Source: a virus. From it: 64,000 bases of DNA. Location of the stretch: positions 1 through 64,000 of the IMG/VR virus record IMGVR_UViG_3300036860_000514, one strand, 5' to 3'. Of the stretch, positions 781 through 24,175 are shown in pieces. Position numbers and translations under genes: made by a program. Under the pieces are notes generated by a model that was given only the letters and a program-made list of their open reading frames with translations, ran no database searches and was not told the DNA's origin. Each line of letters starts with the position of its first letter. Positions within the stretch are counted from its first letter, which is position 1.

Positions 781-1277
781 TTGCGCATTGCTGATCCGCT
801 CGGAACCCTCGGCTGATCGGTGGGACGGACAACGACTTCGCGCTTGAGCAGCTCCACCGTGTTCTGAAACGCTCGCTCCAGGAGTTCGGACGGCAGGTAG
901 AGCGGATAGACGCTCCCGGACCGCGCCATGCCCGCCATCACGCAATCCGCGATGTAATCGAGCACGTCGATCAGATTCACATCCTCGGGGATGCCATCCG
1001 CCTCCGTCAGGTGATGCCGATTCAGCTTGCGGTGCCGGTCCCACCAGTCATGTTTCTCAAAGCCGGTCAGGAAATCAGCGTGGAAGCTATCGACGTCCTC
1101 GACCTTGTCGAAGTCATGCACGAACGCCGCTCGCTGGAGGAGCGCCCCGAAGAACTTCAAAGCCGCCCGCACGTCTTCGATATGCTGCAGTGAGCTTGTC
1201 ATGAGCGTCGCCTTCGTGACGTTCTTGAAATCGCACGTGCGTGTATCCGCCGTCTGACTCATCGGGATCTCGATCAT
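756..1277 (-). CDS. DUF5662-like HD-type phage protein
   Basis: 173 residues. An early His-Asp pair (AAFVHDFDK), a tryptophan pair (HDWWDRH) and a following NRHH motif resemble the DUF5662 family of small phage proteins, which looks like a reduced HD fold; no reaction is established for the family. The start was chosen at 1277 because its ATG overlaps the polymerase stop as ATGA, meaning coupled translation. It is the last gene of the leftward operon. Confidence 0.7.
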   Translation of the reverse strand: MIEIPMSQTADTRTCDFKNVTKATLMTSSLQHIEDVRAALKFFGALLQRAAFVHDFDKVEDVDSFHADFLTGFEKHDWWDRHRKLNRHHLTEADGIPEDVNLIDVLDYIADCVMAGMARSGSVYPLYLPSELLERAFQNTVELLKREVVVRPTDQPRVPSGSAMRNQGPGGGA

Positions 1278-4200
1278 GCGCTCCTCCTCAGCATCGATCC
1301 ATCCTCCTCGTCTTCCTCTTCGGCCGCCGTCCAGAGGCTCGGATCGAGCGAACTGAAGCCGGGTACCTGGAGATCTTCCATGTCCTGCCAATCGTCGCCG
1401 ACTTTCGCACTAATCTCATTGGAGAGGAACGGACCCAGCCCCCAGTCGAGCGGCATCGGCTGATTCAGGAGCGGGCGCTGCATCACCAGACAAATGCGTT
1501 CGAGTACCCGATCCCAGACGCGATGGGGAATCTCAAACAGATCGGAGTCATGGATCGGGGCACGCAGGGGCGTGCGACCATAGTAGGCATCGCCGATGTA
1601 GTACGGGCTGTCCGGATCGAAGAGCTCGAGATTGACGGCGTCGAGATCGCCGGCGCCGATCGATTGCGGATAAAAGGCGAGCGCCCGCTTGGCGTCCTCC
1701 CCAGGCCCGACCTTGAAGTACTCCCCGTTGATGATCGTGATCGGCGGTTCCAGCCCCGCCTTCTGGTAGCGGGCGATCAGCCGGTAGTACTGCGCAGCGG
1801 TCAGCCGCTTGAAGGTAAAGACAGACCAGAGCTCCAGCTTCGTCCCGTAGGGGTGGTCGCCGGGCCCCCCGAGGTATTTATCGCGGTGCGCGCGTTCCTG
1901 CGTCTGACGCTGCCACGCCGTGACCTTCGGCGCCATCTCGTGAAAGAGCCGTTCGAACTTCTGCGCCGTCGCGAGATTGGGGAAGAGCGTCGGGTACTGG
2001 AGCAGCATCCCCATGAGGGTCAGCCCGTAGTTCTTCGCGTGGACGTAGTGCTTCGTCTGGTCGTAGAGGAAGACGTGCTTCTTTTTGTATTCCGCGAAGA
2101 GCTGCCGGAGGTCGTCGGGGCGATCGTAGAGCCAGGTCCGGTCGAAGGGAGTCCCGAGCACGTAGGAGAGCATCCCCGAGTGCACGCCCAGCTTCGCCAG
2201 GCGCATATAGTCGGGATCCTGCGCGCGATGCCCAACCTTGATCGCCTCGATCGCGCGGAAGTCCACTTCGAGGAGCCGACAGCCAGGGGAGGCGACGATG
2301 CACTTCCGGAAGCCGGCCGCGAGCGCATGCCGGCCTCCCTTGGCGACTCCCTTGTCGGCCACCACGTTGGTGATATTCGGGTCTACATAGCTTTTCCTCC
2401 CCATCGACGGTTTAAACGTCGGAACTGGATGGACCCGATCGTCGCTGTCGAGGCGTCGTTCTGTGCCTTCTACATAGGTCCCCTCCACTTTGTTGATCGC
2501 CCGGTGATCGAGCAGCGCCGTGTAGAACGGATCTTTGGTCTGCTTCTCGAGCCGTTCGAGCGTCTCGCGATCGGTCGATTCCTTGTGCGTCTTCTTAGCC
2601 CGGCCTGGCTGGTGCTTCTTGTGCTTGATATAGGCGAGCACCTGCTGCCAGCTATCCGGGTTGAAGGGCTCCTGCCAGTACCAGCGGGTGACGGTGGCGA
2701 CCTGCACCGTGATGTCGGCTGGCTGATCCGACGGCTTCCAGCGCGTCACCCCGTCCTTCCCGACGACGGCGACTTTGCACCGGTGCTTGCGGTGGACGTC
2801 CTTCTCCCCGCAGGCTTTACACACCAGGACTTCTTTGAGGACCAGCTTCTCGACGACCCGCGCTTGCTTATAGAGATCGAGTTTGATGTCAGACGGGGGC
2901 CGGCCGGCGCGGGGCTTGCCCTTTCTGGTAAAGGCGGTGGCTTTGACGTGCAGGACGTTCGGCAGCGGGGGGGCCGCGAGTCCACCCTTCGGCGTGAGCG
3001 GCGCGAGGGCCTCCGGATAGAGCGTCTGCATGATGGCGGACCGATCCTTCAGCTTCTGGATCAGGTCAGCCTTGAACAGTTGGAGTCGGGTGCGATCGAC
3101 CTTGACCCCGACGAGCTGCGCGGGCCGGAGCGCGACCGTGTGCAGCTTGTGCACATGGCGCATCGCGTTGTCGAACATCCGCATCGCGATGAGATCGCGA
3201 TAGACGCCGAACCCACAGCGGTGATTCTGGAGGCCATCGATCGCCCCATACTTCGCCGGCTCGAGGTCGGCGAGATGCTTCCAGGGCCCATAGCTGGAAT
3301 AGAAGGGGGCGACGAAGCCGAGCCCGCGAGGTGAGTCCGAGTGCAGGTAGTGCCAGAGCCACATCAGGTCGATGACGCGCCCGAAGTCCTCTTCTTTCAG
3401 AATGCCGGCGGCGACTTGGCGGGGGAAGTCATACTCCTTGTTCCACATCCAGATCGGTCCCGGCGACTGATAGAGCCGGCGGAGCTCGTCGATGTAGGGC
3501 CCTGCATGGGGCACCGTCCCGCCTTCGTCCGTGTTGATCGACCAGTTCTGGCGCAGGATCTGATAGCTGCGATCTTCGTTGGTTATTTCCCCCTCGTCTT
3601 TGCCACCCGCCTTATCCGGAGTCTCGACGTCGTTGGTGAGGGGATAGGCCCACGGGTCCTGCTGACGAGCCGCAACGGCTTGGTCGACCCAGGCGTGGAA
3701 CCAGTCCAATGGCGGATCCACGACCAGAGAACCTGTGTCAGCCGGTTTGCCATGATCGCGTGCCTCCTCCGCTTGTCGGAGATCCCACAGGACCGTGCCG
3801 ATCAGGTTGTGCGCCCCACGTTGTAAAAAGCTCGGGTGGAAGGTGGGAACGACCCAGAAGCGGTCTTTCGGCTCTCGCAGGATCGCGCCGTGAAAGTCGT
3901 GGACGCGGATCTTCTTGTACCCGACCAGATTCATGACCCGCTTCAGCGCATTCCCGCCGAAGGTGACCACGACTTTATGCTTCTCGTCGAGGGTGGGCTC
4001 GAGATAGGGACACGCCATCGCGGCGTGGTACCAGGGCGCCCGCTCATCGAACCAATCACCGGGCGGCCGACATGAGGCCACGTTATGCAGGCGAATGCTG
4101 TCCCGCGACCACCCCAGTAGGTTGAGCAGTCGTTGGAGCATCCCGCCCGCATCACCCATGAACGGCCGCCCAGTGAGGGCTTCGACTTTCCCGAGGGCCT

Positions 4201-4312
4201 CGCCCACCCCTAACAGCCATGCCTGGGGCGGACCGTCCGCGGGCGCGAAGCCCTCAGCCTGACGGTCGAGCGTGCAGCTACGGCAGGCGCTCGGTCTCGG
4301 GAGGGCGGGCAT
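1274..4312 (-). CDS. Family A DNA polymerase with N-terminal uracil-DNA glycosylase domain
   Basis: 1012 residues. Residues about 8-175 match a family 4 (Fe-S) uracil-DNA glycosylase: C10 and C13, then C81 (SCRPPG) and C101 can hold the 4Fe-4S cluster; GEALGKVEALTGRPFMGDAG (37-56) is the uracil-binding motif and HPS (159-161) the second active-site loop. Residues about 220-375 form a DEDDy 3'-5' exonuclease: D228/E230, NKEYD (291-295), YGAID (355-359). The polymerase domain has motif A with D684 and E689, motif B ending in NYG (761-763), and motif C as HDSD. A CxxC...C zinc-finger-like insertion lies at about 498-512. The expected role is replicative synthesis with proofreading, plus uracil sensing or removal. 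The O-helix is atypical: the usual lysine position looks like His. Family and domains are clear; what the fusion does is inferred. Confidence 0.93.
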   Translation of the reverse strand: MPALPRPSACRSCTLDRQAEGFAPADGPPQAWLLGVGEALGKVEALTGRPFMGDAGGMLQRLLNLLGWSRDSIRLHNVASCRPPGDWFDERAPWYHAAMACPYLEPTLDEKHKVVVTFGGNALKRVMNLVGYKKIRVHDFHGAILREPKDRFWVVPTFHPSFLQRGAHNLIGTVLWDLRQAEEARDHGKPADTGSLVVDPPLDWFHAWVDQAVAARQQDPWAYPLTNDVETPDKAGGKDEGEITNEDRSYQILRQNWSINTDEGGTVPHAGPYIDELRRLYQSPGPIWMWNKEYDFPRQVAAGILKEEDFGRVIDLMWLWHYLHSDSPRGLGFVAPFYSSYGPWKHLADLEPAKYGAIDGLQNHRCGFGVYRDLIAMRMFDNAMRHVHKLHTVALRPAQLVGVKVDRTRLQLFKADLIQKLKDRSAIMQTLYPEALAPLTPKGGLAAPPLPNVLHVKATAFTRKGKPRAGRPPSDIKLDLYKQARVVEKLVLKEVLVCKACGEKDVHRKHRCKVAVVGKDGVTRWKPSDQPADITVQVATVTRWYWQEPFNPDSWQQVLAYIKHKKHQPGRAKKTHKESTDRETLERLEKQTKDPFYTALLDHRAINKVEGTYVEGTERRLDSDDRVHPVPTFKPSMGRKSYVDPNITNVVADKGVAKGGRHALAAGFRKCIVASPGCRLLEVDFRAIEAIKVGHRAQDPDYMRLAKLGVHSGMLSYVLGTPFDRTWLYDRPDDLRQLFAEYKKKHVFLYDQTKHYVHAKNYGLTLMGMLLQYPTLFPNLATAQKFERLFHEMAPKVTAWQRQTQERAHRDKYLGGPGDHPYGTKLELWSVFTFKRLTAAQYYRLIARYQKAGLEPPITIINGEYFKVGPGEDAKRALAFYPQSIGAGDLDAVNLELFDPDSPYYIGDAYYGRTPLRAPIHDSDLFEIPHRVWDRVLERICLVMQRPLLNQPMPLDWGLGPFLSNEISAKVGDDWQDMEDLQVPGFSSLDPSLWTAAEEEDEEDGSMLRRSA

Positions 4313-4493
4313 ATTTCAATCTAGGTTTCCCAGACCACTCCGCAGGGCAGGGCTCCGTGATGTTATAGATCCCCGTCTTCGGGTTCCGCTTCTCGACTTT
4401 GTCCCAGCGCGCCCCGCAGTCCATGCAATATCGCGGACTCACCGTGGAATTATAGCGGTGACTGGGATGGGGGATCGGGAGGCCCTTGGCCAT
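4278..4493 (-). CDS. Small zinc-ribbon protein
   Basis: 71 residues with CMDCGARW and a later single Cys (EPCPAEW), resembling a small zinc ribbon, probably nucleic-acid or protein binding. A GGAG ribosome site lies about 7 bases before the ATG. It overlaps the gene upstream (44 bases) and the polymerase start (35 bases), so it is probably translated as part of the operon. Family unknown. Confidence 0.65.
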   Translation of the reverse strand: MAKGLPIPHPSHRYNSTVSPRYCMDCGARWDKVEKRNPKTGIYNITEPCPAEWSGKPRLKYARPPETERLP

Positions 4494-4764
4494 TCAGATA
4501 CTCCGCGATCACATCCCCATGGCAGTCCTTCGGCTTACACCAGCAGCCGAGGACCTTGTCTTTGAGCTCGGCGCGCGCCTGGGCTCTGAGCTCCGCACAT
4601 CCGTCGGAGTACCAGTACTGTCTGTACAGTTCGATCGCCTTCGCGCGCGTGAGTCGCCCCCTCGGTCCGTAGCTGCCGCCAATCGCGAAGGGGTTGCCCC
4701 ACTTCGACGGCCGGCCGATATACACATCGTAGAGCGTGCTCCGGACATTGACGACGGTGGTCAC
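4450..4764 (-). CDS. DUF4326 family protein
   Basis: 104 residues from a GTG that overlaps the upstream stop as GTGA. The family signature is complete: VYIGRPSKWGNPF near the N-terminus, the helix AIELYRQYWYS, and LGCWCKPKDCHGDVI near the C-terminus. The conserved Cys/His set suggests an enzyme or metal site. DUF4326 is common in phages and bacteria without a fixed function; comparative genomics has linked it to nucleotide-modifying systems. Its neighbours here are a HAD phosphatase and the polymerase. Confidence 0.88.
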   Translation of the reverse strand: MTTVVNVRSTLYDVYIGRPSKWGNPFAIGGSYGPRGRLTRAKAIELYRQYWYSDGCAELRAQARAELKDKVLGCWCKPKDCHGDVIAEYLNGQGPPDPPSQSPL

Positions 4765-5543
4765 GCCTCTGAGGAACTCGATCCCCTTGGCGGTTCCGGC
4801 AACGCGCCGCAGGCACATCGCTCGTCGTCGCGCATCACATGAATCATGAAGCCTGGATGGCATGGGTCTGGGTAACACATGGAGATTCGCTCTCCACGGA
4901 CGGCGGCGAGGGCGGCCTCGACAAGCGCCTGTCCGAATCTCTCCAGCGCCTGTTTCTGCTCGTGATACTCGCCGTGAAACAGTGTCGGCCCGTGGCTCGA
5001 ACCCCACGACCAATCGGAAATAAACTTCCGCACGTTGAATGACTGCGCTTTCTCCAGCGCCTCGGTGAGCATGGCGTTCTGATCGTGATACTTGATCGCG
5101 AGATGTTCGTAGGCTTTCAGACGCTCCAGTTCTTGAGTGAGCGTGGCGACCTGCTCCTGGAGGCTCTCCCCGGTGTTCGTCACCATCTGCACGCACCGAT
5201 CGTCATAGAAGGCGACCATCTGCCAGTCCTTCGTCGCCGTGACGGGCAGGATCTGGCCGAAGACCTTCAGACACCACTCCGCAATGAGGGCGCGCTGATT
5301 CGCCGCGAACGCCCGATCATCGGTCGCCACACTCGACCGCGCCCCGCAGGCCGCCACGCGCGCCGTCATGATGCGGACGCGCTTCCCCTCAGCGAGCCAG
5401 GCCTTGACGCGCTCGACCATCGTGGGGATCGGTGGGCCGATGCCCAGGACCGCGTCATTTCCCGTGGTGTGATCGGTGGGCTGCTCGATCCATTCGGCGA
5501 GCACCCCGTCGAGATCGACCCCGATCCAGCTTCCGTCAGACAT
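4761..5543 (-). CDS. HAD-superfamily phosphatase-like protein with coiled coil
   Basis: 260 residues. DLDGVL (D10 and D12) is HAD motif I, a Thr-bearing IMTARVAA segment near residue 60 is motif II, and AFYDDRCVQM near 115 is the acidic motif IV, so the first half looks like a phage HAD hydrolase, possibly a nucleotide or sugar-phosphate phosphatase. Residues about 130-170 form a coiled coil, and the C-terminus carries Cys pairs. The leader contains a duplicated 16-bp element holding the ribosome site. Confidence 0.75.
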   Translation of the reverse strand: MSDGSWIGVDLDGVLAEWIEQPTDHTTGNDAVLGIGPPIPTMVERVKAWLAEGKRVRIMTARVAACGARSSVATDDRAFAANQRALIAEWCLKVFGQILPVTATKDWQMVAFYDDRCVQMVTNTGESLQEQVATLTQELERLKAYEHLAIKYHDQNAMLTEALEKAQSFNVRKFISDWSWGSSHGPTLFHGEYHEQKQALERFGQALVEAALAAVRGERISMCYPDPCHPGFMIHVMRDDERCACGALPEPPRGSSSSEA

Positions 5544-6061: not shown

Positions 6062-6507
6062 AGGTCCCTCTCGACAATCACAAACCGGTCATCGAGGATC
6101 GGCTCCAGAATGCTCCGCACCTCACTCCAGAGCAGCTTCCCATTCCCGCAGCCTGCGCGCGGCAGGAGCACCCGGCGGAAGTTGCGCACCGTCGTCTCAC
6201 CGACGAGTTGACACGCGCTCCGGTGGATCAGCTCGAGATCGGCCGTCTCCCACCAGTTGTGTTTCACGGGGAACGCGTAGAGCGGACAGAGGGTCGGATC
6301 CTCGAGGAGGAGCTGCACGACGTTGCCGCGTACGCGCAGGAGCTCCCCGAGCGTCACCTCGATGGTCGGATAGCGTTCTTTCGCCTGTCGGGCGACGCCT
6401 CGTCCCATCACGCCCCGCCCACTGATGGAGATCGTCCCGTTGGTCGTAATGCAGAGGGCGTCGGCGTCCTGCGCTTCGATCCAGAGGTCGCCAGCGATCT
6501 CGATCAT
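6058..6507 (-). CDS. Macro-domain-like protein
   Basis: 149 residues from an ATG overlapping the glycosyltransferase stop (ATGA). ALCITTNGTIS corresponds to the first strand and Asn of macro domains, GRGVMGRGVARQAKERYP to the glycine-rich ADP-ribose-binding loop, and VLLPRAGCGNGKLLW to the second binding loop. Family members bind or hydrolyse ADP-ribose derivatives, such as ADP-ribose-1''-phosphate or ADP-ribosylated protein or DNA. The position among nucleotide-handling genes (SLOG, DUF4326, HAD) fits that. The exact substrate is unknown. Confidence 0.85.
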   Translation of the reverse strand: MIEIAGDLWIEAQDADALCITTNGTISISGRGVMGRGVARQAKERYPTIEVTLGELLRVRGNVVQLLLEDPTLCPLYAFPVKHNWWETADLELIHRSACQLVGETTVRNFRRVLLPRAGCGNGKLLWSEVRSILEPILDDRFVIVERDL

Positions 6508-7487
6508 GACTCGCCCTCGAAGATCTCCGCGATCTTGTCGAGCGCGGGCCGACAGGCCTCGACGATGTCGGGCATCGTGATGATCGTCGGGCGCTCCTCT
6601 CGCTGCTTCCGGAAGTAGTCCTGCAGCGCCGGCGTCGTCGGCTCGGTGAGCGTCGCGAGCTGATCGAAATCGCTCGCGTAGGTGCGGTCGTTGAAGGGTG
6701 TCCAGAAGGTCTCCTGATTCACCGGCCCACCCCACTTCCGCTGGTAGTACGCCCGCGCGCCCCGCTCGATCCCTGCCCTGATCGCCTCCGCCTTGCGCGG
6801 ATCGATCTGCGCGAGCGTCTGGGACGCCAGATGGAGGTACGGCCAATTGATCCCGAAGATCCGATCCGCCTCCCCCGCCAACATCAGTCGCCGGTGATAG
6901 TCCAGGTCTTCGCAAAAGGCCGGCGTGAAGTGCTCATCGAACCGGAACCGCACATGGCAGGCATACGAGATCAGAAAGCACGAGAAGTCCGGCCCCCCAT
7001 GCCCTACGGAGTTCATCTCAATGGGGGCGCGCAACCACTGAGCGGCGAGCTGATCACTGACGTCGCCAGGATCGGGGTACCAGCCATCCCTGTTCACACC
7101 CAACGCTGAGACAAACAGACTCTCAGTACTAGCTAGTACAGTACATAGGACGTGCATCGTCTCTCGATGCAGCCGGACGTCGTTGTTGACGACGAGCGCC
7201 TTCCAGGTGTCCATCTCCCCGAGCGCCTGCTCCCAGACGAAGTCGAGCGCGCGGTTCCAGGTCGCCGCCAGACTCGGCAGCGGCGGGTCGTGCGACCAGA
7301 GCAGCACCTCCGGATACAGCTCCGCGAGCCGTTCGAGTCGCACGCGGAAGTCCGACGGGACGCCCTGATTGACGATCAGGATGCGTGTGGGAACGGTCTG
7401 ATCGAGCAGATCGTCGACGACCGCTTCAGTCATCTCTGGGCCGGCGAGGACCGGCATGATGGCCCAGACGGGCTCAATCGTCGTCAT
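6504..7487 (-). CDS. GT2-like glycosyltransferase
   Basis: 327 residues. An N-terminal GT-A nucleotide-sugar fold is suggested by WAIMPVLAGP, ILIVNQG and the acidic LVVNNDVRL, which would hold the metal (DxD-like). AFCEDLDYHRRL near the middle matches the GT2 ED motif. It would transfer a sugar from an NDP-sugar; the acceptor is unknown. The start ATG overlaps the upstream stop (ATGA). Part of its coding sequence (7126-7154) nearly matches the integrase 3' end. Confidence 0.82.
   Translation of the reverse strand: MTTIEPVWAIMPVLAGPEMTEAVVDDLLDQTVPTRILIVNQGVPSDFRVRLERLAELYPEVLLWSHDPPLPSLAATWNRALDFVWEQALGEMDTWKALVVNNDVRLHRETMHVLCTVLASTESLFVSALGVNRDGWYPDPGDVSDQLAAQWLRAPIEMNSVGHGGPDFSCFLISYACHVRFRFDEHFTPAFCEDLDYHRRLMLAGEADRIFGINWPYLHLASQTLAQIDPRKAEAIRAGIERGARAYYQRKWGGPVNQETFWTPFNDRTYASDFDQLATLTEPTTPALQDYFRKQREERPTIITMPDIVEACRPALDKIAEIFEGES
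7126..7154. repeat. Dispersed 29-bp near-repeat, copy 1
   Basis: GTACT, two variable bases, CTAGTACAGTACA, one variable base, AGGACGTG. It matches 24146-24174 at 26 of 29 positions in the same orientation. In this copy bases 7126-7139 form the perfect palindrome GTACTAGCTAGTAC. It lies inside a glycosyltransferase reading frame. Confidence 0.8.
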
Positions 7488-7708
7488 GAGGGCCTCCGGT
7501 CGACGTCGGCCATCAGCCGATCGAACCACATGAGGAAGGCGGTCATCGTCTCGATCTCGAGATAGATCACGTTGGTCACCTCGATGCCATTCTCGGTTGT
7601 GAGCTCGATGCAGCCTCGTGTGCGGTTGACGGCTGCGTAGACGCCATCCCCGAGATACGTCTTTCGGTCCGTGGTGGTTATGAGAGGGATCGAGGTTTTG
7701 TCAGCCAT
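7484..7708 (-). CDS. Hypothetical protein
   Basis: 74 residues. The start at 7708 has CAGGAG about 8 bases before it. The middle is beta-rich (CIELTTENGIEV) and ends in a helix (TAFLMWFDRLMADV). It overlaps the membrane-protein gene upstream by 31 bases and the GT2 gene by ATGA. No family recognised. Confidence 0.6.
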   Translation of the reverse strand: MADKTSIPLITTTDRKTYLGDGVYAAVNRTRGCIELTTENGIEVTNVIYLEIETMTAFLMWFDRLMADVDRRPS

Positions 7709-7966: not shown

Positions 7967-8655
7967 CGGCCGCTCCATCGCCAATACTGATTGCCCCCGT
8001 TGATCGTCTCCTCGTCGTACCCGTGTCGCACTCGCCAGCGTCGGTAGTCCTCCGCACTGTGTCCGTGCCGACTGAGGAGATCGGCTTCGTACTCGATCAG
8101 AATATCGGGGTGATCGCGTTGGATGATTTTCTCCGCCCCGAGGAGGACGTGGAGATCGGCGCCCTGGGTATCGACCTTCAGGACATGGACTGGAGCCGCC
8201 CACGCCCACCCCCACGCATCTAACGGGCGGGCGAGCGCGCCCTGCCTACGCGGGCGTACATGCGCCTTCCTCGCAGGGAGCCACGTGTTCGAGGCACGCG
8301 TCGGATGCTCACGCACTTCGTAGAGATTGATGTCTCGGCTATAACAGAAGGTCGGCCTGACGTGCACACGGTGGCCCCAGTCATTCGCGTGGACGTTCCG
8401 TTCGAGCAGAGGCTGGTAGGCCGGATTCGCCTCGACCGCCTCCACCAAGCACCCCCGAGCCGCAAGATACCCCGCGTAGAGCCCGACGTGCGCCCCGACA
8501 TCGATCACGTGTGATCCCACAGGGACCGCGTCGAGGACTGGCTTGAGGTTGAGGTCCCAGAAGCCGTCTCGTTGGATGTCCGCGTTCATGTAGTCGGCCG
8601 CCCGCGTCCAGAAGGTGCCGTACGGGAGAGTCAGCAGGGTCTCCTCGTCGGTCAT
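7963..8655 (-). CDS. FkbM-type methyltransferase
   Basis: 230 residues. VIDVGAHVGLYAGYL (about 49-63) is the SAM-binding motif I, EAVEANP the motif II acid, and VLKVDTQGADLHVLLGA is the signature of the FkbM family, which O-methylates sugars or polyketides. With glycosyltransferases all around, a sugar acceptor is the simplest reading. ATGA overlaps on both sides. Confidence 0.87.
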   Translation of the reverse strand: MTDEETLLTLPYGTFWTRAADYMNADIQRDGFWDLNLKPVLDAVPVGSHVIDVGAHVGLYAGYLAARGCLVEAVEANPAYQPLLERNVHANDWGHRVHVRPTFCYSRDINLYEVREHPTRASNTWLPARKAHVRPRRQGALARPLDAWGWAWAAPVHVLKVDTQGADLHVLLGAEKIIQRDHPDILIEYEADLLSRHGHSAEDYRRWRVRHGYDEETINGGNQYWRWSGR

Positions 8656-9350
8656 CGGTAACTCCAGTAGCGAACCGCTGGCTGCCACGGTCCCACATAG
8701 CCTGGGTTCGGTTTCCAGACGATCACGCACGAGTTGACGCCGGCGTTCGCCGCCGCTGAGCCGTCCGGCCGGAGGAACGAGATCCGGTGCGGCAGTCGGC
8801 GCTCTTCCATCGCGGCGTGCCCGGCCCATCCCAGATCGTTGACAACGAGCTTTCCGTTCGCTTGCTGCCCACGGATCTCGTGTCCCTGGACGTACGCGCG
8901 AAACCATTCGGTCTGTGGGGCATACGGGAGGATGGCGTAGGTGGTGAAGCCCTGCCGGCTTTCCTGCCAGCACTTCTCCGCCCAGCTCTCGACCTCGTAC
9001 CAGCGAGCCTTGGTCTCGTTCTTCTCGTGCTCGACCCACGTGCCGTCGATCTCGATCCGCCCCGTCCGATACGCATTCGCCAGCTTCTTGCTAAAGGGTG
9101 GATTCAAAAAGCCGGGCCCCCGGCCGAACTTGCTCGACCACTTGACGGCGAAGGCGTCCTCGCTGATCACACTCCCCGGCCCGAGGAACGTGTAGCTCTC
9201 CCCATCGCGCGAGACGAGGGCATTGTCAAGATCCGCGGCGAGGTCGACCACGAAGCGCGCCTCGTCGTCGAGCTTGTTATAGCAGTCCTGGGGCGTCCGC
9301 CAGTTAGACTCCTCGCTCGAATGGATTACACGGCGATCGTGGTCTCTCAC
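8652..9350 (-). CDS. dam: DNA N6-adenine methyltransferase, phage Dam type
   Basis: 232 residues from GTG 9350, overlapping the upstream stop as GTGA. NWRTPQDCYNKL opens the phage-type Dam family, VVDLAADLDNAL is the SAM region, and GFLNPPFSK contains the NPPF catalytic motif of N6-adenine methylases. It would protect phage DNA from restriction or mark it. The recognition site cannot be read from the sequence. Confidence 0.88.
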   Translation of the reverse strand: MRDHDRRVIHSSEESNWRTPQDCYNKLDDEARFVVDLAADLDNALVSRDGESYTFLGPGSVISEDAFAVKWSSKFGRGPGFLNPPFSKKLANAYRTGRIEIDGTWVEHEKNETKARWYEVESWAEKCWQESRQGFTTYAILPYAPQTEWFRAYVQGHEIRGQQANGKLVVNDLGWAGHAAMEERRLPHRISFLRPDGSAAANAGVNSCVIVWKPNPGYVGPWQPAVRYWSYR

Positions 9351-22928: not shown

Positions 22929-23129
22929 ATGTCGTTGACACACCGCGGCAGACTCACCCTGCAACAGAACGCCGCGCACGCGCGGCAAGCAAAGAAAGAT
23001 AAAGCGGCCGCACGCTGGCAACAGCAGATGGCGTGGGCGAAGCGCGGAGCCGCCGAGCGCGTGGTCGAGATTCACTTTGAGCTCCAACGACTTGAGCAGT
23101 TCCTCACCGATGGGGATCGTGAATCGTGA
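22929..23129 (+). CDS. Small basic protein upstream of integrase
   Basis: 66 residues from ATG 22929, chosen because GAGGGA lies 7 bases before it. Lys/Arg/Gln-rich and helical (LQQNAAHARQAKKDKAAARW). The stop overlaps the integrase GTG as GTGA, so it is coupled to it; it could be an accessory recombination protein or just a leader gene. Confidence 0.6.
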   Translation: MSLTHRGRLTLQQNAAHARQAKKDKAAARWQQQMAWAKRGAAERVVEIHFELQRLEQFLTDGDRES

Positions 23130-24175
23130 AGGATCTGACGATAGGCGTCTACGATACGCCCACGCGTCGGCGGGCGATCGTCGATCTTGGGAGGGCTGGG
23201 CGGAAGGAGAAACGCTTTCCGCTCACGACCGATCTCCGCACGATCCAACGCTGGCGCCACGTCACGACGGTCAAGCTCGAGACGCGCGCGCGCCGCCGAT
23301 CGCCAGGACCGAGGGGCTGGCTCGCCACGCTCATCAATCAGTATCTGGCGCGGCCCGAGATCCGCAAGCTGGCGTCGTGGAAGTCGCGCTGTTCTGATGC
23401 CCGGGCGTGGCTGCCGGCGCTCGGATCGCTGCGTAGCGATCGGATCACCGACGAGGTGATCGAGGCCGAGGTCCAGGCGTGGCTCGCGGCGGGCGTGGCG
23501 CGCTGGACGATTCGCCATCGCTTGACGGCGCTGCGCAAGGTGCTCGACGATGGGACGGGGTACAACCCGGCCCGCGACGTGAAGCCGCCGGCGAAGCCAC
23601 AAACGATCCCGCGCGCGCTCGACTACGCGACGATCCGCACGACGTTCAATCAAATGGAGCCGTCTGCGACCAAAGGCTTTCTCTTGATCATGGCGTTCTG
23701 CGGCTTCCGCCCGTGTGAGATTCTCCGCACCGAGCGGCGGATGGTGCGCCTCGACAGCCACGCGCCCTATGCCATCCGGCCAACCGCCAAGGGCGGAGAC
23801 ATCGTCACCCTGCCGCTCTCGGCGGAGGGCGTGCTCGGCTGGCAGATGTTTCTCGATCACGACGGCTTCGGTCTGCAAGCCAACCAGAGACCCAGGACCT
23901 TCTGCAACGCGAATCGCGATTGGCAGGCGGCGATGACTCGTGCCGGCTTCGAGCCGACCCGCGCCTACGATCTCGTGCACTCCTACTGCACACAGCTCCT
24001 GTGGGGCGGCTACGACATCACGCTCGTGCAGAAGGCCCGCGGGCACCGCGACATCCGCACGACGATGATCTACACGAAGGTGGCGATCGACCCGCGCCTC
24101 GCGCATGCCGTGCACCAGGCGTTCGACGCTCGCACGCCTCCACTGGTACTCACTAGTACAGTACACAGGACGTGA
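23126..24175 (+). CDS. int: Tyrosine integrase with altered box II
   Basis: 349 residues from GTG 23126. Residues about 60-150 are the SAM-like core-binding domain; the catalytic domain has R195 (FCGFRPCEIL), K222, H307 (GHRDIRTT) and the nucleophile Y316 (MIYTKV). The box II HxxR, normally H-D-L-R, reads Y281-D-L-V284, so both the histidine and the second catalytic arginine are missing; the codons (TAC, GTG) are unambiguous. attP lies 250-500 bases downstream. Function as the phage integrase is very likely from context; activity is uncertain because of the substitutions. Confidence 0.9.
   Translation: MKDLTIGVYDTPTRRRAIVDLGRAGRKEKRFPLTTDLRTIQRWRHVTTVKLETRARRRSPGPRGWLATLINQYLARPEIRKLASWKSRCSDARAWLPALGSLRSDRITDEVIEAEVQAWLAAGVARWTIRHRLTALRKVLDDGTGYNPARDVKPPAKPQTIPRALDYATIRTTFNQMEPSATKGFLLIMAFCGFRPCEILRTERRMVRLDSHAPYAIRPTAKGGDIVTLPLSAEGVLGWQMFLDHDGFGLQANQRPRTFCNANRDWQAAMTRAGFEPTRAYDLVHSYCTQLLWGGYDITLVQKARGHRDIRTTMIYTKVAIDPRLAHAVHQAFDARTPPLVLTSTVHRT
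24146..24174. repeat. Dispersed 29-bp near-repeat, copy 2
   Basis: Matches 7126-7154 at 26 of 29 positions. It ends one base before the end of the integrase gene and codes its last residues. Palindromy is weaker here (GTACT...AGTAC). Confidence 0.8.

Follow-up and report, generated by a model that had tools for sequence, protein, structure and literature searches.

A uracil-DNA glycosylase domain with an apparently intact active site, fused to a proofreading family A DNA polymerase in a lineage of uncultivated phages

Results

One open reading frame joins a glycosylase, an exonuclease and a polymerase

The window analyzed in this work comprises the first 64,000 nucleotides of the IMG/VR virus record IMGVR_UViG_3300036860_000514, whose full 72,037 bases have ends overlapping by 174 bases with one mismatch, and which is therefore close to complete. 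On its minus strand, the list of open reading frames contains a gene (1274–4312) that encodes 1012 residues with a uracil-DNA glycosylase (UDG), an exonuclease and a family A polymerase part, and whose full length is kept in relatives. The frame runs uninterrupted from an ATG at 4312 down to 1274, and an in-frame TGA two codons 5' of this ATG precludes a longer in-frame product; no strong Shine-Dalgarno sequence was seen directly 5' of the ATG. Pfam searches placed a UDG domain (PF03167, E 1.5e-17) at residues 25–167 and DNA_pol_A (PF00476, E 1.9e-18) at residues 547–705, both above the curated cut-offs, and the order of the three domains is that of the phage UDG-PolA fusions already on record. 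When the UDG part was compared with that of the relative L033, changes amounted to 0.51 at third codon positions versus 0.23 and 0.19 at first and second positions, and the exonuclease part behaved alike; this excess of third-position change indicates translation of the UDG part under constraint. An AF2 model built from a 21-sequence alignment (pLDDT 82, pTM 0.75) found its best PDB fold match in Klenow (1kfs, TM 0.69 on the target), the PDB matches being Klenow-type polymerases (1jxe, TM 0.78 on the target), and the viral-library matches of similar full length were mainly phage DNA polymerases. These data confirm the fusion as a real gene in one open frame; in the reading we prefer, its product is the DNA polymerase of the phage and probably its replicase.

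The glycosylase domain keeps the family 4 active site, with one replacement

The UDG domain, of the family 4 type by PF03167, NF040953 and PDB 4zbx, spans residues 6–183 (3764–4297, minus strand, as are all features of the gene). In what follows, residue names in brackets refer to the numbering of Thermus thermophilus UDGa (Tth UDGa), and conservation counts to 21 aligned full-length fusion proteins. The first two candidate Fe-S ligands, C10 and C13 (4274–4285), are kept in 21/21. Motif 1, GEALGKVEA (4178–4204), provides E38 (E41) and E44 (E47), both in 21/21, and has Leu in place of the Pro of the family consensus G-E-(A/G)-P-G-x-x-E. Motif 3, NVASCRPPGD (4055–4084), contains N77 (N80; 21/21), the third candidate ligand C81 (19/21) and, at the position of N89, D86 (14/21). 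The fourth, C101 (4010–4012), and the catalytic H159 (H155) of motif 2, HPS at residues 159–161 (3830–3838), are again present in all 21.

In Tth UDGa the pocket is formed by E41, G42, E47, F54, N80 and H155, with E47 blocking the entry of thymine and N89 placing the water (PMC5387724). By alignment with family 4 UDGs, E38, E44, F51, N77 and H159 of the fusion protein correspond to E41, E47, F54, N80 and H155, the G42 position is Ala and the N89 position Asp. The replacement N89A lowers k2/Km of Tth UDGa about 7-fold (PMC5387724, Table 1), so that about one seventh of it is kept and uracil excision would still be expected from the Asp-bearing protein. Judged by these residues, the active site is apparently intact.

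Regarding its classification, the type-4 UDG model ranked first in NCBIfam (NF040953, E 5.4e-24) with UdgX well behind, all below their own curated cut-offs (NF040953, 84.7 vs 250 bits; TIGR00758, 79.7 vs 125.3). Since these cut-offs were missed and that of the superfamily PF03167 was reached, we use the label family-4-type rather than that of a certified member. The PDB sequence matches were led by the UDGs of Sulfolobus tokodaii (4zbx, E 7e-19), Thermotoga maritima and T. thermophilus. UdgX enzymes are marked by a Gln in motif 1 (GEQPG) and by the R-loop KRRIH (PMC10359453); in the alignment, the window protein has Ala at the Gln position and lacks the R-loop insert, and by these marks it is not a UdgX. 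Thus, the family 4 signature with Fe-S cysteines proposed in the initial annotation was borne out, and the alignment with family 4 UDGs and UdgX suggested there left N89 as the one catalytic residue changed. Neither of the two findings named there as contradicting it was made, since the other catalytic residues are present and the UDG part is coding and under constraint.

Exonuclease, zinc-finger-like insert and polymerase

The DEDDy 3'-5' exonuclease occupies residues 196–395 (3128–3727), with Exo I at D228/E230, Exo II at N291–D295 and Exo III at Y355–D359; its counterpart in phage MW202455 matches Pfam PF01612. D228, E230, D295, Y355 and D359 are found in 21/21 relatives, a conservation partly due to selection, because Exo-motif patterns had been used to find these relatives. 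The thumb region contains an insert of the form CxxC-x8-HxC (C498, C501, H510 and C512; residues 498–512, 2777–2821), kept in 21/21, which resembles a zinc finger and is a probable zinc site. The thumb, palm and fingers (residues 541–935, 1508–2692), assigned by PF00476 and the Klenow fold match, contain motif A from D684 to E689 (2246–2263; both residues 21/21), motif B from K754 (Klenow K758; 21/21) to G763 (Klenow G767) at 2024–2053, and motif C, HDS, with H921 and D922 in 21/21 (1544–1552). A loss of the motif B lysine (Klenow K758 to His) was considered and rejected: the alignment with MW202455, from which the register of motif B was taken, puts K754 at K758, and it is Klenow F762 that is replaced. 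The intact proofreading exonuclease and the polymerase, as proposed initially, were therefore recovered by their motif residues.

The glycosylase and the polymerase are retained together

A first scan of IMG/VR, which used exonuclease-motif patterns and no UDG motifs, yielded 32 loci, mostly on contigs of 45–76 kb. Among the 21 full-length proteins aligned, E41, E47, N80, H155 and three Fe-S cysteines were present in all, C81 in 19 and F54 in 17, and the N89 position varied across the lineage (Asp in 14). Strict invariance was observed at 7/9 key UDG positions vs 28/189 positions of the domain (hypergeometric p 2e-5, uncorrected for relatedness), and mean column identities were 0.70 for the UDG part, 0.72 for the exonuclease and 0.67 for palm and fingers. 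The lineage of L028 and L029 lacks the third Fe-S Cys together with its motif. A second scan, partly based on the HPS motif and hence favoring proteins with H155, extended the set to about 80 loci; the core E41, E47, N80 and H155 was complete in 70/78, and the other 8/78 have Asp at E41. Trees of the UDG and the exonuclease-polymerase parts were concordant (Mantel r 0.91; 0/2000 permutations as high), consistent with an old fusion whose two parts have since descended together. On this sequence evidence, dozens of uncultivated phages have retained the UDG active site along with the polymerase over deep divergence, and the fusion belongs to a large undescribed lineage that keeps the UDG part. 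One fusion with 42% identity (L050, 3872–6874 of QHVT01000039.1) lies on a contig assigned to an Acidobacteria MAG, which hints at possible hosts.

Inteins and split genes

Two relatives on separate contigs, L018 (910–4707 of IMGVR_UViG_3300011444_000014) and L019 (6001–9795 of 3300043621_000137), carry an intein within the UDG domain. The insert of about 270 residues is in frame, starts with Cys and ends with HN, is followed at +1 by the third Fe-S Cys (C81), and matches Pfam Intein_splicing (PF14890, E 7.9e-10). In L037 (about 6849–7606) an intein-like insert with a LAGLIDADG domain interrupts the Exo II motif; the match to a splicing domain (E 3.4e-4) falls under the Pfam cut-off. Inteins typically occupy, and usually persist in, conserved functional sites, and the UDG site therefore behaves like the exonuclease site. 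Two further intein-like inserts, judged by eye, were noted within motif B of L077 (residues ~768–1081 of the ORF) and in the palm of L097 (7709–9886).

In several relatives the polymerase is encoded by two ORFs, with the break at the thumb-palm border in L034, L035, L002/L036, L080, L082 and L040, and at the exonuclease-thumb border in L089, L092, L093, L096, L098, L102 and MW202554. Such splits at domain borders apparently arose on more than one occasion, and some of the gaps contain NADAR and HNH frames. A group I intron at motif A of L002 was rejected, as there was no Rfam match; a gene split explains this locus better, given the HNH and NADAR frames in the gap and a separate start codon for the second half.

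Genome context

The N-terminus of the fusion gene was the sole strong UDG match in 31/31 viral records; one record (G014) has an additional weak match interrupted by a stop. Matches to PF00303 (thymidylate synthase/hydroxymethylase fold), PF02511 (Thy1), PF00692 (trimeric dUTPase) and the AP endonuclease family PF01261 were found in 0/31 of these records, several of which are fragments, and the named control genomes did match. With regard to dUTP, this search covered dUTPases of the trimeric type, as distinct from dimeric dUTPases, MazG-like enzymes and other dUTP pathways. Elsewhere in the window lie genes for a phrog_464 protein of unknown function (4450–5196), a galactosyltransferase-like protein (6504–7529), a phage DNA methyltransferase family member (phrog_111; 8652–9350) and a tyrosine integrase (23126–24175).

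Discussion

The UDG-exonuclease-PolA architecture is already known from SPO1 gp31, PaBG gp205 and phiLo. The polymerase of Thermus phage phiLo (AYJ74010.1, 1175 aa) has the same three parts in a single chain of solved structure (PDB 9qhs) and, like the window protein, possesses E41, E47, F54, N80, H155 and four cysteines, although the two are only remotely related (33% identity, measured over the UDG alone) and the 9qhs chain begins at residue 34, hence without the first two cysteines; our literature search found no paper describing 9qhs. Pseudomonas phage PaBG gp205 and its jumbo-phage relatives, published in 2020, likewise carry an N-terminal UDG followed by exonuclease and polymerase (PMC7412058), but the PaBG UDG is degenerate, without Fe-S cysteines and with Ser aligned to H155, where the window protein is intact. 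The gp31 of Bacillus phage SPO1 also has a UDG-like N-terminus on a family A polymerase; it is degenerate too, without Fe-S cysteines and with N80 replaced by Ser and F54 by Met, and SPO1 encodes a dUMP hydroxymethylase, unlike the window lineage. The same architecture with intact UDG residues occurs in Caudoviricetes vir526, MW202455 (L042, 827–7343) and MW202554, the last split over two ORFs; these are smaller phages (44 kb) with the canonical N89, in contrast to the Asp of the window protein. The fusion of MW202455 adjoins annotated genes for an FAD-dependent thymidylate synthase, a pyrimidine hydroxymethylase, a thymidylate synthase and a ligase. The UDGs of T. thermophilus (1ui0), T. maritima (1vk2) and S. 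tokodaii (4zbx) share the motifs, four cysteines and pocket residues, but are free-standing and have N89. Other phage fusions, for which the initial annotation had proposed a search, thus do exist and limit the novelty it implied: given intact residues also in phiLo, vir526, MW202455 and MW202554, what is new is an additional lineage of catalytically intact appearance, not the architecture.

As to function, we consider it rather probable, on the sequence evidence given above, that the fusion protein contains an active tethered UDG that removes uracil from the DNA held by the polymerase. The N-terminal domain would be a working family-4-type UDG with an Fe-S cluster, in which N77 would recognize uracil, E44 exclude thymine and H159 stabilize the leaving uracil. 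Its substrate may stem from dUMP inserted by the polymerase, as no trimeric dUTPase is brought by the phage, or from cytosine deamination, and the tether would place the glycosylase at the site of phage DNA synthesis, whichever strand it may act on. Host base excision repair would presumably deal with the resulting abasic site; encountered in the template, such a site would instead stall the polymerase. The absence of trimeric dUTPase is in keeping with a demand for uracil removal, within a search limited to that one class of dUTP-controlling enzyme. Counted against activity are the replacement of N89 by Asp, variable across the lineage, and the loss of the third Fe-S Cys in L028/L029. Besides, phage phi29 makes a UDG inhibitor, since uracil excision in its single-stranded replication intermediates is harmful (PMC4974454), so a polymerase-borne UDG is presumably restricted in space or to one strand.

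The main alternative, which we regard as unlikely but to be taken seriously, is that the domain serves mainly as a module by which the polymerase binds DNA or gains processivity, excision being secondary or absent. By analogy, the vaccinia UDG D4 forms a processivity factor with A20 (PMC5682278), and the best argument is that SPO1 gp31 and PaBG gp205 keep their UDG-like domains attached despite the loss of key residues, so that a role without catalysis is possible. However, DNA binding alone would not need E41, E47, N80, H155 and the cysteines to be as strictly conserved as they are in this lineage, and the complete core in most of the wider set (with Asp at E41 in the remaining eight, and with HPS partly selected by the scan) points the same way.

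Archaeal family B polymerases stall at template uracil without excising it. A comparable sensor, binding uracil ahead of the polymerase and stalling it, would agree with the location of the UDG on the polymerase chain and with an altered N89 that could slow excision while N80 and E47 still bind uracil; nevertheless, the leaving-group residue H155 is invariant, and we find this reading improbable. Still less credible is a fusion serving a genome with hydroxymethyluracil (hmU) or similar modified pyrimidines, a link raised by the initial annotation. MW202455 does have the fusion beside an annotated pyrimidine hydroxymethylase and thymidylate synthases, but it is a different phage; in the window lineage, genes of PF00303, PF02511 and PF00692 are lacking from all 31 records, so the idea is unsupported there, and the thymine-blocking E47 is invariant. 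In two cases only, Bacillus phages SP-15 (L047, 3926–4504) and SPO1 (L008, from 42242; an hmU phage), family-4-like UDGs with Ser for the uracil-binding N80 were seen; SP-15 DNA contains a modified thymine. Finally, a start codon further downstream that would leave the UDG part unmade in vivo, for which the lack of a strong Shine-Dalgarno directly before the ATG might speak, is hardly credible, as the UDG part matches the exonuclease part in both codon-position pattern and conservation, and as two relatives hold an in-frame intein inside the UDG part.

Altogether, the fusion, its residues and their conservation, the linked descent and the absence of the listed genes are observed here, and an active tethered glycosylase is the reading we prefer. 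A wider version of it, in which built-in excision replaces dUTPase control and clears misinserted or deaminated bases during copying throughout a widespread phage lineage with genomes of ~70 kb, some Fe-S sites depending on splicing, is conceivable, although we consider it doubtful. Earlier UDG-polymerase fusions were noted in single phages or small groups, and SPO1 and PaBG, the best known of those checked here, are degenerate; here, a lineage without trimeric dUTPase or thymidylate synthase keeps the UDG site with the polymerase. If the UDG is active, the fusion would be a direct test case for uracil repair coupled to replication in one polypeptide, unlike the situation in phages such as phi29, where UDG is blocked; the enzyme may also serve for DNA synthesis free of uracil.
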